A DNA stretch of 64,000 nucleotides, taken from NCBI RefSeq assembly GCF_900119915.1, contig NZ_LT635455.1, positions 1,426,001-1,490,000 on the forward strand, written 5' to 3'. The translations under genes and the position numbers were made by a program. Below the pieces are notes generated by a model, which was not told the origin of the DNA, made no database searches, and was given only the letters and a program-made list of their open reading frames with translations. This DNA comes from Olsenella timonensis. Lineage in GTDB: Bacteria > Actinomycetota > Coriobacteriia > Coriobacteriales > Atopobiaceae. This document shows positions 33,403 through 40,272 of the stretch, piece after piece. Every line of letters starts with the position of its first letter. The first letter of the stretch is position 1.

Positions 33403-33731
33403 CGGGCCCCTTTCCAGCGACGGTGCCACCACACCCGCGAGTATAGCGCGCGCATGCGACGGGCGCGCAAGCGAAGCTTCGGCGCCTCGGAGTCGCCCGG
33501 TACGCCGCCGACGCTCGGCGCGTCGTCCGCGCCACGTCGGGTCTCCCTCCCGCCCGGTCGTCCCGCGCTCGCGGGTCGGAGACGACCGCCCGCCGACATC
33601 CGAGCGGACGACCCGCGCCCCTCTCCCCCTCCGACCTGCGCGCGCAGCCTCGTGATAGCCAACGCGCGAATGGCGTCAGCACCCGCATGCTAGGCTCTCC
33701 GCCCACCCCAGACAGCGGACAAGGAGGCCTC
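33403..33731. other. GC-rich gap with no gene
   Basis: About 330 bases between the divergent membrane protein and adhesin genes. It is very G+C rich with several short imperfect palindromes, and AAGGAGG (ribosome-binding site of the adhesin) at its right end. I see no RNA gene or clear promoter. Confidence 0.5.
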
Positions 33732-36700
33732 ATGACGCAGTTACGACACATCCCACCCGAGGGGGAGCCGGAAGGGCGGCCAAGAAGGACGAGGCATATG
33801 GGGAGGGGTCGGCCCCTGGCGCGCGTCGCTGCGCTCGTACTGACGGTGGCGCTCGCCCTCCAGGGCGCACTCGGCGGCGGGACGCGCGCCGGGGCGGCGC
33901 AGACGCAGACCGGCGACTCCATCTACCTGACGGTCGGCGAGCGCATCTGGTACGGAGGCCAGGGGGACATGGGCACCGCGCGCATGAGCGCCAACGGCGA
34001 GGTGGCCTACTGCGCCGACCCGGAGAACAACCCGCCGAAGTCTGGCTACTACACGCGCGAGCCCGTCAAGACGGCGGAGGGGGACGGCTGGCACTGGCCC
34101 GTCGAGAGCGTCGAGCGCGTGCTGTACTACGGCTATGGGGGCCCGGGGTTTGACGCCGAGCTCTGGCGAGGCTGCATAGGCGGGACGGACGGCAGGGGGC
34201 GCCACTTCGCCGCCGGTCGGGACTGGGACGGCTCGGACATCACCGAGGACGAGTTCTACGCCTACACGCACGTCCTGCTCTCGGACCGGGTGACGAACGA
34301 CGGCAGCGTGGCGCTCGCGGGCACCTCCGAGTCCTTCAGGGCATGGTTCTGCTGGAACGTCCTCGGCTACACCTACGGCAACGCCGGGGGCAACGAGAAC
34401 CAGGGCTCCGTCGGCCTGACGATCGACCGGATGAGCGTGCCGGACGGGTTCGAGGCCTACCAGCTGGACACCGGATATAACTCGATGTGGGTCGAGGGCG
34501 CACGCTCGCAGATCGTGGTCACGTTCGAGTACAACCCCAGCGTGGAGGTCCGGTTCGACAAGGTCTCGGCAGACGCCGAGCTCACGAGCGGCAACTCCGA
34601 GTACGCCTATGCCGGGGCGACCTATGACGTCTACGAGGCCGACGGCGACGTCAAGGTCGCGTCCATAACCACCGACGAGCGCGGCCGGGCGAGCTGTACC
34701 CTCAAGCCGAACACGAGCTACTACGCAGTGGAGACCGCGGCGCCCCAAGGCTTTGTCAGAAGCGACGAGCGAGTTGCGTTTGACACGGGAACGTCAGAGA
34801 AGACGGTCAGTCTCGAGGACGCCCCCGGCACGGTCGAGCTCCGGATCGTCAAGCGCGACTCGGCCACACTCGGGGAAGCGCAGCCTGGCGTCTCGCTCGC
34901 GGGTGCCGAGTATCGTGCCGTCGATGCCAACGGTGACGCGCATACCGCCACGACCGACGAGTCCGGGCGCGCGGTCTTCTCGGGCCTCCCCCTCGGCGGG
35001 CTCAGCGTGACCGAGACCAAGGCCCCGGAGGGCTATCTCCCCGACACGTCGGTTCACGAGTACCAGGCCAGCGCCTCCATGCTGCCCGAGTCCGGCGTCA
35101 TCGAGCTCGAGCCGACGGGAGACTTCGACGAGCACGTCGTCGCGTTCGACTTCGACCTCGTCAAGTACCGGGACGGCGGCACGGAGGGGTCGGGGCTGCA
35201 GCAGCCGGCCGCCGGGGTGCGCTTCGAGGTCGTCTCGGGCACCACGGGCGAGGTGGTGGCAACGCTCGCCACCGACGAGCATGGCTTCGCGACCACGGAG
35301 GGAGGGTGGTTCGGCGCGGGGGAGCGCCCCGAGGGCGTCCATGGCGCGATTCCCTACGACCGCGAGGGCTACACGGTCCGCGAGGTGGCCTCGACCACCC
35401 CGGAGGGATACCAGAGCGCGCCGGACTGGCATGTGACCCCCGAGCAGATGCTTGACGGCGTGACGCTCCACTACATCGTCGACAACGACTTCGTGGCGTC
35501 GCGCATCCAGGTGGTGAAGGTCGACGCCGCGAGCGGGCGTGCCGTGCCGCTCGCCGGCTTCACCTTCCAGCTCCTCGACGCCGACGGCAACGAGCTGGAG
35601 CAGGACGTGTGGTACCCCAACCACGAGCAGCTCAGCGAGTTCACCACAGACGAGACGGGATGCGTGACGTTCCCCGGCCGGCTCAGGCCAGGAACCTATC
35701 GCATCCGCGAGACGGCTGCCGTCGCACCCTATCTTTCGGCCGGCGGCGACCTCTCCGTCACCATAGGGAACGCGGCCGACACGCCGCCGGTCAGCGTCGT
35801 CAGCTTCGCCGACGACCAGGCGCGCGGCGCGGCGACCATCGTCAAGCGCTGCTCCGCCGACGAGGCGGCGGATGCGGGCCACGTCTGCGACCCGGGATGC
35901 GACGGGCTTCTCGCCGGCGCGGAGTTCGACGTCGTGGCACGTCAGGACGTCGTGTCGCCCGACGGCACCACGCAGGCCGTGGAGGGCGAGGTCGTCGCCC
36001 ACGTGACGACAGACGAGAGCGGCAGCGCCACGGTGCGCGGGCTGCCGCTCGGGCAGGGCAGCGCGACGTACGCCTTTGTCGAGACCAGGCCGGCGACCGG
36101 GCACGCGCTCGACGCGACGCCGCACGAGTTCACGCTCGCCTATGCCGACGACGACACCCCCGTGGTCACCGCCGCGGTCGAGGCCAGCAACGAGCCGACG
36201 GTCGTCGCGCTCGACAAGACCGTCCTCGGCACCGGCGAGCCGCTCTCCGGCGCCACCTTCGCCCTCTGGATCGAGGAGCCGGGCGGCGGGGACGGCGACG
36301 GCGGGACCACGGGCGAGCGCACGCTCGTCACCACCGACGACGGCGGCACGATCACGCTGCGTCACCTGCGCCCAGGGACCTACTGCCTGGCGGAGGTCGA
36401 TCCCCCCGAGGGCTACCTCGCAGACGGCGTCACGCGAACCTTCACCGTCGACGAGACGGGGCTTGTGGAGGGCTCGCCCTCGCTCGCGCTCTCGGCCGAG
36501 GACGACTTCACCAAGGTCGAGCTCTCCAAGCGTGACATCACGAACGAGGCGGAGGTCCCGGGCGCGCGTCTCAGCGTCCTCGACGCCGAGGGCAACGTAG
36601 TGGAGAGCTGGGTCTCGACCGAGGGTCCCCACCTCATCGAGGCGCTGCCCGTCGGCACCTACACGCTCGTCGAGGAGATGACGCCCCACGACTATGACGA

Positions 36701-37646
36701 GGCGACGGCCGTCGAGTTCTCGGTCGCGGAGACCGGTGAGGTCCAGACCGTCGTCATGTACGACCGCCCGATCGACGTCTCCGGCGAGCTCGACAAGCGG
36801 CAGGAGGTCGCGGGGGGCGCGGGCACGGGCTTCGACTACTCGGTCGACGCGCGCAGCACGAGCTCGACCTGGGTGGACGAGTTCACCGTGACCGACGAAC
36901 TCGACGCGGTGAGCGACGGTCTCGCCGTGCTCGACGGCATCACCACGCCCGTCGCGAGCGGCGACTATGACGGCACGCTCAACGTGTGGTATCGAACCGA
37001 CCTCGCCGAGGCGGGCCACGTCGACGAGAGCGGCGCCAACGCCACGCTCTCGGACGGCCACGCGAACCCCTGGCTCCAGGCCGAGGAGACCGGCGAACAG
37101 CTGGGGGACGACGGCCGCGTCCTCTCCTACGAAGGCTGGCGACTCTGGGCGCAGGACGTGAGCGCCACGGAGGCGACCGCGCTCTCCGTCTCAGACCTCG
37201 GGCTCGCGGAGGGCGAGAAGGTCGTGGCGGTGCGCCTCGAGTACGGACGCGTGGACCCCGGCTTCACGACGCGCTCGGGAGACTGGGAGCGCGACGGCCT
37301 CAAGGACGCTCGTGACGACGTCTCCGACGTGACGGCGACGCACGGGGGCGACCTCACCGACGAGGGCACCGAGCGCGCGCCGCTCGTCGTGCACATGACC
37401 ACGACCGACGCCTACCGAGACGGCGCCAGCCTCCTCAACCGCGCTCAGGTCGACCTCTATCGCAACGGGGGCGGCGAGGGCCTGGAGGGCCATGACGACG
37501 ACCTCGTCGAGCAGGGGGCACCGAGCCCGGCGCCCTCCATGCCGACGCCGCTCGCCAGGACCGGGGAGGCCACGCTTCCCGTCGCCGGGGTGGCGACCCT
37601 CGGGTTTGCCGCGGTTCTTCTCAGCCTGCGGAGAAGGCGTCGCTGA
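33732..37646 (+). CDS. Large sortase-anchored Cna-B adhesin/pilin-like surface protein
   Basis: A 1304-residue cell-wall protein likely to bind host tissue. In order: a positively charged start and signal segment (about 30-55), a thioester-like N-terminal domain with a YC pair at Cys94, then about eight SpaA/Cna-B repeats (each with a VxxxK-type strand and closing GTYxxxE), a distinct domain near residues 1020-1220, and the sorting signal LARTGEATLPVAG, hydrophobic segment and RRRRR tail. LARTG departs from LPXTG. At the expected thioester Gln there is His180 (YAYTHVLL). ATG chosen for its AAGGAGG site. Confidence 0.9.
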   Translation: MTQLRHIPPEGEPEGRPRRTRHMGRGRPLARVAALVLTVALALQGALGGGTRAGAAQTQTGDSIYLTVGERIWYGGQGDMGTARMSANGEVAYCADPENNPPKSGYYTREPVKTAEGDGWHWPVESVERVLYYGYGGPGFDAELWRGCIGGTDGRGRHFAAGRDWDGSDITEDEFYAYTHVLLSDRVTNDGSVALAGTSESFRAWFCWNVLGYTYGNAGGNENQGSVGLTIDRMSVPDGFEAYQLDTGYNSMWVEGARSQIVVTFEYNPSVEVRFDKVSADAELTSGNSEYAYAGATYDVYEADGDVKVASITTDERGRASCTLKPNTSYYAVETAAPQGFVRSDERVAFDTGTSEKTVSLEDAPGTVELRIVKRDSATLGEAQPGVSLAGAEYRAVDANGDAHTATTDESGRAVFSGLPLGGLSVTETKAPEGYLPDTSVHEYQASASMLPESGVIELEPTGDFDEHVVAFDFDLVKYRDGGTEGSGLQQPAAGVRFEVVSGTTGEVVATLATDEHGFATTEGGWFGAGERPEGVHGAIPYDREGYTVREVASTTPEGYQSAPDWHVTPEQMLDGVTLHYIVDNDFVASRIQVVKVDAASGRAVPLAGFTFQLLDADGNELEQDVWYPNHEQLSEFTTDETGCVTFPGRLRPGTYRIRETAAVAPYLSAGGDLSVTIGNAADTPPVSVVSFADDQARGAATIVKRCSADEAADAGHVCDPGCDGLLAGAEFDVVARQDVVSPDGTTQAVEGEVVAHVTTDESGSATVRGLPLGQGSATYAFVETRPATGHALDATPHEFTLAYADDDTPVVTAAVEASNEPTVVALDKTVLGTGEPLSGATFALWIEEPGGGDGDGGTTGERTLVTTDDGGTITLRHLRPGTYCLAEVDPPEGYLADGVTRTFTVDETGLVEGSPSLALSAEDDFTKVELSKRDITNEAEVPGARLSVLDAEGNVVESWVSTEGPHLIEALPVGTYTLVEEMTPHDYDEATAVEFSVAETGEVQTVVMYDRPIDVSGELDKRQEVAGGAGTGFDYSVDARSTSSTWVDEFTVTDELDAVSDGLAVLDGITTPVASGDYDGTLNVWYRTDLAEAGHVDESGANATLSDGHANPWLQAEETGEQLGDDGRVLSYEGWRLWAQDVSATEATALSVSDLGLAEGEKVVAVRLEYGRVDPGFTTRSGDWERDGLKDARDDVSDVTATHGGDLTDEGTERAPLVVHMTTTDAYRDGASLLNRAQVDLYRNGGGEGLEGHDDDLVEQGAPSPAPSMPTPLARTGEATLPVAGVATLGFAAVLLSLRRRRR

Positions 37647-37741: not shown

Positions 37742-38581
37742 CTAGAACGCGGGCTGGACCGCGTCGCCGAAGGTCTCGGCGAGATAGGCCTTGAAGTCGT
37801 CGGTCGTGAGCGCGGCCACGAGCGCGGCGATCCTCTCGTCCTCAGCCTTGTCGGGCGTGGTCACGATGACGTTGGCGTACTCGTTCTTGATGGCCTCGGA
37901 GTCCGCGCTCTCGTGCGCCACCGAGTCGTCGAGGGTGAGGCCGGCGTCGATGAAGTAGTTGCCGTTGATCACCGAGAAGTCGGCGTCGGCCAGCGTGGAG
38001 GGCAGCATCGCCGCCTCCTGCTCGATGAACTCGACGTTGTGCGGGTTGTCGACGATGTCGTTGGGCGTGGCGGTGACGCCGGCGTCCTCGGCGAGCGTGA
38101 TGACGCCCTGCTCCTGGAGCAGCAGCAGCGCGCGGCCCTCGTTGGTGGCGTCGTTGGGGACGGTGATCGTAGCGCCGTCGGGGATGGCGGCGAGGTCGCT
38201 CGACTTGCCGGGGAAGACGGCCATCGGCTCGAAGTGGATCTTGCCGACGCTCACGAGGTCGGTGCCGTTCTCCTCGTTGTAGTTGTTGAGGTAGTTGAGG
38301 TGCTGGAAGTAGTTGCAGTCGACCTCGCCGGAGGAGGTGTCCTGGTTGGGAAGGATGTAGTCGGTGTACTCCTTGACCTCGAGCGTGATGCCCTGCTCGG
38401 CCAGAAGCGGCGCGGCGAAGTCGTTCAGGATCTCGGCGTGGGGGCTGGGGCTGGCCGCCACGGTGAGGGTGTCGGCGGCCTCGGACGTCTCCTCGGCCGA
38501 CCCGCCGCAGGCGACGAGCGCCGTGGAGGCGAGAAGGGCAGTGGAGGCCAGCAGGGTGCGACGGGTGATGCTCTGGGACAT
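37742..38581 (-). CDS. metQ: Methionine ABC transporter substrate-binding lipoprotein
   Basis: Binds methionine outside the cell. The 279-residue protein has a signal with twin arginine (ITRRTLLASTALLA) and a lipobox (LVACGG), then the NlpA/MetQ fold with SPSPHAEILND, YILPNQDTSSGEVDCNYFQH and VPNDATNEGRALLLLQ, which are family signatures. It is the last gene of metN-metI-metQ, about 55 bases after metI. The operon follows a Met-rich leader peptide, which supports methionine as the substrate. Confidence 0.93.
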   Translation of the reverse strand: MSQSITRRTLLASTALLASTALVACGGSAEETSEAADTLTVAASPSPHAEILNDFAAPLLAEQGITLEVKEYTDYILPNQDTSSGEVDCNYFQHLNYLNNYNEENGTDLVSVGKIHFEPMAVFPGKSSDLAAIPDGATITVPNDATNEGRALLLLQEQGVITLAEDAGVTATPNDIVDNPHNVEFIEQEAAMLPSTLADADFSVINGNYFIDAGLTLDDSVAHESADSEAIKNEYANVIVTTPDKAEDERIAALVAALTTDDFKAYLAETFGDAVQPAF

Positions 38582-38635: not shown

Positions 38636-39319
38636 CTAGCTCTGGGTACGGTGGTCGACGCGGCGCGCCGCGAGGTCGCAGACGCTCTGGATGACCTGGA
38701 CGATCACCACGAGCACGACGACGGCCACGACCATGACCTCGTCGACGCGGCGGTAGTAGCCGTAGCGCACGGCGATGTCGCCGAGGCCGCCCGCGCCGAT
38801 GGCGCCCGCCATGGCGGTGTAGCCGAGCACGGCGATCAGCACGACGGCGACGCCGCGCACGATCGAGGGCAGCGCCTCGGGCAGCAGCGCCGAGAACACG
38901 ATGCGCGGCACGCTGGCGCCGCAGGCCTCCACGGCCTCGACGCTCTCGCGCGGGACCTCGGCGAGCGACTGCTCCACCATGCGGGCGATAAAGGGCGTGG
39001 TCGCCAGCACGAGCGGCGGGATGATGCCCGCGAGGCCCGACGCCGTCCCCATGATCACGCGGGTGAACGGGATGATGAACACCATCAGCACGATGAACGG
39101 GAAGGAGCGCAGGATGTTGACGACCCACCCGAGCACGGCGGAGAGCACGGGCATCGGGCGCAGCGACCCCGGCGCGGTGAGATAGAGCACCACGCCGAGC
39201 GCAAGGCCAAAGACATAGGAGATGGCAGTGGGCACGAGCACCATCACGATCGTGGAGAGCGTGCCCTCGGCCAGCAGCTCGCCGTACTCGGCGAGAAAGG
39301 CGTTCACGAAATCAGGCAT
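38636..39319 (-). CDS. metI: Methionine ABC transporter permease
   Basis: Membrane channel of the methionine importer, 227 residues with five to six helices. The coupling loop ESVEAVEACGASVPRIVF, and the GAIGAGGLGDIAVRYGYYR segment near the end, are typical of MetI. I place the start at the ATG 39319, whose first codons overlap the metN stop by 8 bases, rather than at an upstream TTG. GAGAGGG precedes it. Confidence 0.93.
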   Translation of the reverse strand: MPDFVNAFLAEYGELLAEGTLSTIVMVLVPTAISYVFGLALGVVLYLTAPGSLRPMPVLSAVLGWVVNILRSFPFIVLMVFIIPFTRVIMGTASGLAGIIPPLVLATTPFIARMVEQSLAEVPRESVEAVEACGASVPRIVFSALLPEALPSIVRGVAVVLIAVLGYTAMAGAIGAGGLGDIAVRYGYYRRVDEVMVVAVVVLVVIVQVIQSVCDLAARRVDHRTQS

Positions 39320-40061
39320 CCCAATCAACCCTCTCGAGAAGTACCCTGGCGGCCTGGGAGCGGGGCTCGGCGAAGACGTCCGCCACGCTCCCCCGCTCCA
39401 CGACGTGCCCGTGCTCCAGCACCACCACGTTGCGGCAGATCTTCTCGACCACGCCCATGGAGTGCGTGATCACGATGATCGTCACCCCGGTCTCGCGGTT
39501 GATCTGGCGCAGCAGCTTGAGCACCGTGTTGGTGCTCGCCGGGTCCAGGGCGCTCGTCGCCTCGTCGCACAGGATGTACTCCGGCTCGCACGCCAGGGCG
39601 CGAGCGATGGCGACGCGCTGCTGCTGGCCACCGGAGAGCTGGCTCGGGTAGGAGTCGGCGCGGTCGCGCAGACCCACCATATCGAGCAGCTCGAGCGCGC
39701 GCTGGCGGTTGGCGGCCGTGACGCGGCCGGTCGCGGCCTTGTACGGGAAGCACACGTTGGCGAGCACCGTCTTCTGGGCGAGAAGCCCAAAGTTCTGGAA
39801 GATCATCGCCACGCGGCGGCGGTACGCGCGCAGCGCGGCGCCCGTGAGGCCGGTGACGTCCTGGCCGTCCACGAGGATCTGGCCGGAGTCCGGGCGCTCG
39901 AGCAGGTTGATGCAGCGCACGAGCGTGGACTTGCCGGCGCCGCTCATGCCGATGATGCCCATGATGTCCCCGTCGGCGATGTCGACGGAGACGTCGTCGA
40001 GGGCATGCGGCGCATCCGGCGCGCTGCCGTAGGTCTTGGTGAGGTTCTTGATCTGAATCAT
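39312..40061 (-). CDS. metN: Methionine ABC transporter ATPase without the C-terminal NIL domain
   Basis: Energises methionine uptake. The 249-residue protein has Walker A (GMSGAGKST), signature (LSGGQQQRV), Walker B (YILCDEATSALDP) and the switch His. Usual MetN proteins are about 340 residues and end in a NIL/ACT-like domain that binds methionine and shuts the transporter; here the protein stops right after the ATPase domain (EPRSQAARVLLERVDWDA). Feedback by internal methionine is therefore probably absent. The stop overlaps metI. Confidence 0.92.
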   Translation of the reverse strand: MIQIKNLTKTYGSAPDAPHALDDVSVDIADGDIMGIIGMSGAGKSTLVRCINLLERPDSGQILVDGQDVTGLTGAALRAYRRRVAMIFQNFGLLAQKTVLANVCFPYKAATGRVTAANRQRALELLDMVGLRDRADSYPSQLSGGQQQRVAIARALACEPEYILCDEATSALDPASTNTVLKLLRQINRETGVTIIVITHSMGVVEKICRNVVVLEHGHVVERGSVADVFAEPRSQAARVLLERVDWDA

Positions 40062-40095: not shown

Positions 40096-40142
40096 GGCTG
40101 CCTCCCGCCGGAGACAGCCTAGCGAAGGCGCCCGGTCTCCCC
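40096..40142 (-). promoter_or_regulatory. Mutually exclusive hairpins of the metNIQ leader
   Basis: On the transcript GGCTGTCTCC (40110-40119) pairs with GGGAGGCAGCC (40096-40106) in a 10-bp stem after the leader stop. The same GTCTCC can pair instead with GGGGAGAC inside the leader gene (40135-40142). A ribosome at the Met codons leaves GGGGAGAC free, one at the stop covers it. There is no T tract, so control might be of Rho or translation type. Confidence 0.6.
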
Positions 40143-40235
40143 GACCGTGCGAGGTGCGCACGGCACGGCAGAGTGCCCGGGCTTGGGCATCTCCATGACC
40201 ATCATCATCGTGATATGTGCGACAGCGCTCTTCAT
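40119..40235 (-). CDS. Methionine-rich leader peptide of metNIQ
   Basis: A 38-residue peptide starting MKSAVAHITMMMVMEMPKPG, with six of its first sixteen residues methionine, including three in a row. It lies 58 bases before metN on the same strand and ends within the hairpin region. There is no ribosome-binding site, but a promoter (TTGCGT at 40267-40272, 17 bases, TAACGT at 40244-40249) is placed so that transcription would start at or next to the ATG, suggesting a leaderless message. The likely role is sensing charged Met-tRNA to control the transporter. Confidence 0.65.
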   Translation of the reverse strand: MKSAVAHITMMMVMEMPKPGHSAVPCAPRTVGETGRLR

Positions 40236-40243
40236 GAGACGCT

Positions 40244-40272
40244 ACGTTAGCAGTGCCGCGCGGGCGACGCAA
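40244..40272 (-). promoter_or_regulatory. Promoter of the metNIQ leader
   Basis: -35 TTGCGT and -10 TAACGT separated by 17 bases, 8 bases before the leader ATG, consistent with a leaderless start. Confidence 0.5.

Follow-up and report, generated by a model that had tools for sequence, protein, structure and literature searches.

The metNIQ operon in the window, the 64,000-nucleotide stretch of Olsenella timonensis DNA analysed here, is preceded by a leader that very likely works as a ribosome-mediated attenuator sensing charged tRNA-Met, as judged from comparative sequence analysis. Methionine genes are usually described as being under the control of SAM riboswitches, T-boxes or repressors. 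A preliminary description of the locus had proposed ribosome-mediated attenuation for methionine, and this proposal is now supported by the conservation of the Met codon run, the reading frame and the stems, and by a change of the run from Met to Cys before cysK. What was an observation at one locus is a class-wide family: Coriobacteriia probably possess an undescribed type of attenuator in which one RNA scaffold acquires its specificity from the codon run alone, with Met codons upstream of metN and metY and Cys codons upstream of cysK, and which includes a leaderless variant with a motif of its own, element Z.

The leader and the operon are located on the reverse strand. The operon comprises metN, the methionine ABC transporter ATPase gene (39312–40061, start at 40061), metI, the methionine ABC transporter permease gene (38636–39328), and metQ, the methionine-binding lipoprotein gene (37742–38581). 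Their best NCBIfam matches are TIGR02314 for metN and NF008049 for metI, and NF008285 and TIGR00363 for metQ, with the metI match falling slightly under, and the others under, the curated cut-off. The closest MetN relatives are found in Olsenella and Thermophilibacter genomes and display up to 96% identity, which places the window in an Atopobiaceae-type representative of the Coriobacteriia. Just downstream of metQ, the other strand encodes a 1319-aa predicted surface protein (33687–37646) in which repeated SpaA/Cna-B-like segments were recognized by eye.

Exactly as first described, a Met-rich frame of 38 codons lies just before metN (40235–40119, with the stop codon TAG at 40121–40119). Its product, MKSAVAHITMMMVMEMPKPGHSAVPCAPRTVGETGRLR, opens with MKSAVAHITMMMVMEMPK. 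The putative promoter (40272–40244) is composed of a −35 element TTGCGT (40272–40267), a 17-nt spacer and a −10 element TAACGT (40249–40244), which is separated by 8 nt from the leader ATG at 40235. A simple sigma-70 scan left this promoter unscored, and its assignment is based on its sequence and on the spacing in relatives. Element Z (ACATAT, 40218–40213) is positioned about 17 nt past the start codon, and the Met codon run ATG ATG ATG GTC ATG GAG ATG (40208–40188), which has homologous runs in relatives, follows it.

The same leader is found in genome collections upstream of metN in Olsenella, Thermophilibacter, Collinsella, Enorma and related genera. The distance from the ATG to the conserved RNA element A takes ten different lengths among 82 metN leaders, every one of them in frame. 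The ATGs of these leaders are distributed as 365 in frame to 7 out of frame, a count that is partly a product of leader collection, as the frame was read backward from A. The promoter spacing of the same ATGs serves as an independent check: among 79 distinct homologous leaders, 78 have a TANNNT motif 6–9 nt 5′ of the ATG, 61 of them at a distance of 7 nt. This conserved spacing agrees with the earlier suggestion of a leaderless start and fits a start at or next to the ATG; the leader is thus probably leaderless.

Met accounts for 28% across 63 distinct leader starts. In Tractidigestivibacter-like and some other Atopobiaceae the Met run is down to one to three codons, and the AUG abutting segment A1 is retained in the metN leaders of the set even where the run is short. 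Some Atopobiaceae leaders contain no more than one or two internal Met codons, and the position of the stop codon varies among clades; both features count against attenuation by Met codons. Element Z, ACATA(T/C), is present in most leaderless leaders, including those of metY and cysK. It is conserved at the nucleotide level and its position is unchanged when the reading frame over it shifts; it was not seen in the Shine-Dalgarno-led leaders of other orders. Our guess is that it may have a role in leaderless initiation. Several Atopobiaceae relatives (loci L124, L132, L138, L142 and L144) carry metN with no recognizable element, and at L138 metN itself seems leaderless.

Element A has the form GAUGCCC-NN-GCCCGGGC, and segment B (CCGGGC, 40135–40130) is located about 50 nt further on. 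As the preliminary description had claimed, two mutually exclusive stems overlap the frame. Segment A1 (GCCC, 40188–40185) can pair with A3 (40178–40175), which is part of the A2/A3 segment (GCCCGGGC, 40182–40175), or the GCCCGG of A2/A3 (40182–40177) can pair with B. The A2/A3:B helix is present in the minimum free energy fold of the whole leader (z −2.5) and encloses P2 (40173–40137), a variable stem-loop supported by covariation and by a chimera test. Hairpin C (GGCUGUCUCC-GGCG-GGAGGCAGCC, 40119–40096) begins at the leader stop codon and displays covariation on all 10 of its pairs. For P2 and C together, 136 cells are changed on both sides, compared to 47.7 ± 7.2 after shuffling.

The A:B and A1:A3 pairings are nearly unvarying in most members and give no covariation proof there. 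Where they do change, the pattern is informative. The A1/A3/B segments read GCUC/GAGC/CUUGGGC and GCUU/AAGC/UUUGGGC in two AT-richer relatives (genomes G033 and G032, respectively), and as all three segments change together, both exclusive pairings survive. This compensatory change of A1:A3 comes mainly from these two related genomes and from the other orders, in which A1:A3 takes the form GACCC/GGGUC. Eggerthellaceae-like leaders pair A2 with B as GCCUGGG with CUCAGGC. A search for the best helix found at least 6 A2:B pairs in 139 of 142 sequences, a figure that overstates specificity because the search picks the best helix, which is not so for the compensatory pairs. Two loop bases inside A are free to vary; the near-invariance of the rest is explained by the need of A2/A3 to pair with two partners, and A covaries where it is changed. 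The relatives thus display what the preliminary description led us to look for, a conserved Met run and conserved stems with covarying helices.

The best evidence that a ribosome reads the codons, rather than that the RNA binds a ligand, is the swap of Met for Cys before cysK. Within a single genus of the same family, eight genomes carry a cysteine run, FRCCCTCAVPGS, in the same architecture upstream of cysteine synthase A (cysK), the downstream gene scoring above the curated cut-off (loci L296–L303 in genomes G139, G135, G131, G126, G133, G129, G125 and G132). These leaders still have the leaderless promoter and the ACATA motif along with A2 and B, and the runs read RCCCTCAVPGS, RHCCTCAVPEP, QCCCTCFVPGP, ECCCTCVVPGS and RCCTCSLPGS. 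In G133 the pairing is preserved through GCCCGAGCC with GGCUCGGGC. As only metN and metY leaders had gone into the model that found two of the cysK leaders, there was no selection for a Cys run. Occurring in one genus, the swap may represent a single evolutionary event.

The spread of the family was established with two covariance models. The first, R1, gave strong matches in about 90 genomes of the order. The second, R2, which takes in the 5′ part and is biased toward Met leaders, had matches at E ≤ 0.02 in 128 of the 397 genomes from the order and in 136 of 398 sampled across the class, the two sets overlapping. R2 also recovered the Eggerthellaceae-like forms that a regular expression for A and B had missed. 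Among 60 diverse matches, 38 precede metY (O-acetylhomoserine sulfhydrylase), 17 metN and 2 cysK, and 3 are unclassified. In other orders, the metY leaders have an ordinary Shine-Dalgarno site and encode the peptide MMMDMMMTQPG. Weak R1 matches within coding genes (for example L218, L221–L224 and L226–L234) were judged by inspection to be due to chance, and the R2 matches L292 and L295 are unclassified and chance-like. The metY leaders at L254, L255, L256, L261 and L263 encode a strongly conserved peptide, MKKKHxYNxLICxGLFM, with few Met codons. At L265 (G123), a leader MKTTTDNTLLCWGRMMRRPGLSYGRVSSWLESRH with A/B-like RNA is found upstream of a binding-protein-like gene.

Known regulators of methionine genes were searched for in parallel. 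Under both strict and permissive settings, Rfam yielded no family match anywhere in the window, the sole match being a chance snoRNA, nor did the element itself match any Rfam family. The statement that the region contains neither a SAM riboswitch nor a T-box therefore stands. The SAM riboswitch (RF00162) is absent from both the window and the whole genome, and the same search detects it before metN in Actinomycetaceae (L106, L107), which serves as a control. The T-box (RF00230) has no match at the leader locus. Elsewhere in the genome, a weak partial T-box match of 31 bits, under the cut-off, is found at G000:C1:898312-898406 (L215).

A metabolite-binding riboswitch of another kind, in which a Z-A-B core forms an aptamer for SAM or methionine and the short ORF plays an accessory part or none, would account for the near-invariance of A and B within families f1 and f3, for the conservation of Z independently of the frame, and for the Atopobiaceae metY leaders, which carry about one internal Met. 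We nevertheless consider it unlikely: the loop bases of A vary, the pairing of A with two partners explains its near-invariance, the codon runs follow the pathway, the leader frame is always retained, and Z was not seen in the Shine-Dalgarno-led leaders of other orders. Stalling by an ErmCL- or TnaC-type arrest peptide, with a nascent M-P-x-P-G-H sequence responding to Met or SAM, is suggested by an in-frame Pro-Gly pair that lies over A in most leaders, but the peptide varies widely (MPKPGH, LEPGL, TQPGS, VPGS, and PE and PK in G033 and G032), several leaders end inside A before reaching Pro-Gly, and what stays constant is the RNA pairing, which makes this reading very improbable. Short Met-rich frames can also occur by chance, and the finding started from one locus; a coincidental frame beside metN is, however, refuted by the class-wide conservation, the in-frame indels and the covariation, and its probability is negligible.

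Comparison among genomes establishes the leader ORF, its frame, the Met run, the exclusive pairings, P2, hairpin C, the target genes and the Cys switch. For the codon-sensing attenuator we propose the following model. Transcription would begin at the ATG or immediately beside it, and the leader would be translated after what is presumably leaderless initiation. When Met-tRNA is plentiful, the ribosome would pass the Met codons and reach the stop codon, where it would shield A or B; in most clades it would mask the 5′ arm of hairpin C as well. With A2/A3:B blocked, the A1:A3 hairpin could form, and transcription would be ended, or metNIQ otherwise silenced, by a hairpin that overlaps C in its 3′ arm. 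Under a shortage of Met-tRNA, the ribosome would be expected to stall within the Met run, leaving the long A2/A3:B helix and hairpin C free to form, and metNIQ would be expressed. In a long run, a ribosome halted at the first Met codons would fall short of A1. Three points of the model are inferred: that the ribosome stalls, which way the response runs, and that the output is termination and not translation control. Folding with a ribosome footprint masked near A1 gave A:B together with C or the overlapping hairpin in most sequences tried, and masking at the stop codon gave A1:A3 with C blocked in most sequences tried; both are single-structure predictions with assumed footprints. As initiation itself needs Met-tRNA, a leaderless ORF that senses Met must separate failed initiation from an elongation stall, which is a testable question.

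Hairpin C competes with a hairpin that overlaps its 3′ arm. In the window, this is the alternative hairpin GGGAGG-CAGC-CCUCCC (40106–40091), a candidate terminator position with weak support from the family. Neither candidate terminator in the window is followed by a U-tract; the tail reads AGUUCACG. A terminator scan found none at the leader locus, and a test over 20 kb showed no enrichment of U-tailed terminators (4 found, 7.0 expected). A simple trp-like chain, in which B would pair with the 5′ arm of C, received no support from co-evolution (p = 0.42), and B with C3 or D was likewise null. The loop/C3 segment and D display a modest co-evolution (p = 0.001, uncorrected for relatedness). In Collinsella-type genomes, the alternative hairpin GGCGGG/CCCGCC is directly followed by a U-rich stretch (CCCGCC-UUCUUU); the tails of the AT-richer G033 and G032, UGGUUUGUUGU and CUCUUUUGUUUGUU, are U-rich as well. 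These tails in relatives make transcription termination the likelier output for the family; for the window genome it is a candidate reading. An appreciable, though lesser, possibility is that the same codon-sensing leader acts through translation control by occlusion of the Shine-Dalgarno site or through Rho-dependent rather than intrinsic termination. The missing U-tract in the window would agree with this, as would the conservation of AUCGAGCGGAGC around the metN Shine-Dalgarno-like GTGGAG (40075–40070, within conserved AUCGAGYGGAGC) and the translation attenuation described for cysteine biosynthetic genes in Mycobacterium tuberculosis (PMC13236596), whereas the U-rich tails and the loop/C3–D co-evolution speak against it.

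The proposed attenuator resembles those of the trp/his/ilv type (for example M. tuberculosis ilvB1, PMC13236596) in that an ORF rich in cognate codons precedes cognate genes and overlaps exclusive hairpins, and in that a ribosome at the stop codon is expected to block the antiterminator. It differs in sensing Met, in being probably leaderless in this order, in having one scaffold common to the Met and Cys versions, and in the weak or absent U-tract of its GC-rich members. The leaderless polycysteine attenuators of mycobacteria (PMC4633059; Canestrari 2020, as cited in PMC13236596) likewise place a leaderless ORF with a Cys run before sulfur amino-acid genes; the likeness is seen in the architecture, and what the Coriobacteriia leaders add is a version for Met and an A/B scaffold that covaries. 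The LEU element of Actinobacteria precedes leuA and concerns leucine rather than methionine (PMC1262725); for the Actinobacteria examined there, the same work reported that methionine operons lack conserved upstream RNA structures. The SAM riboswitch controls metN-type genes elsewhere but is absent here, and the T-box monitors tRNA charging, whereas here the sensing would be performed by codons of a translated frame.

Word searches of the open-access literature found no earlier methionine leader-peptide attenuation, and PMC2965389, PMC8632094 and PMC11109978 contain neither metN nor any of the related genera searched for. Methionine sensing via a leader ribosome thus appears unreported within the open-access literature searched. 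The Met and Cys versions on one scaffold represent a natural codon-swap experiment and suggest that gut bacteria, among them Collinsella and relatives of Eggerthella, have a simple sensor of sulfur amino acids.
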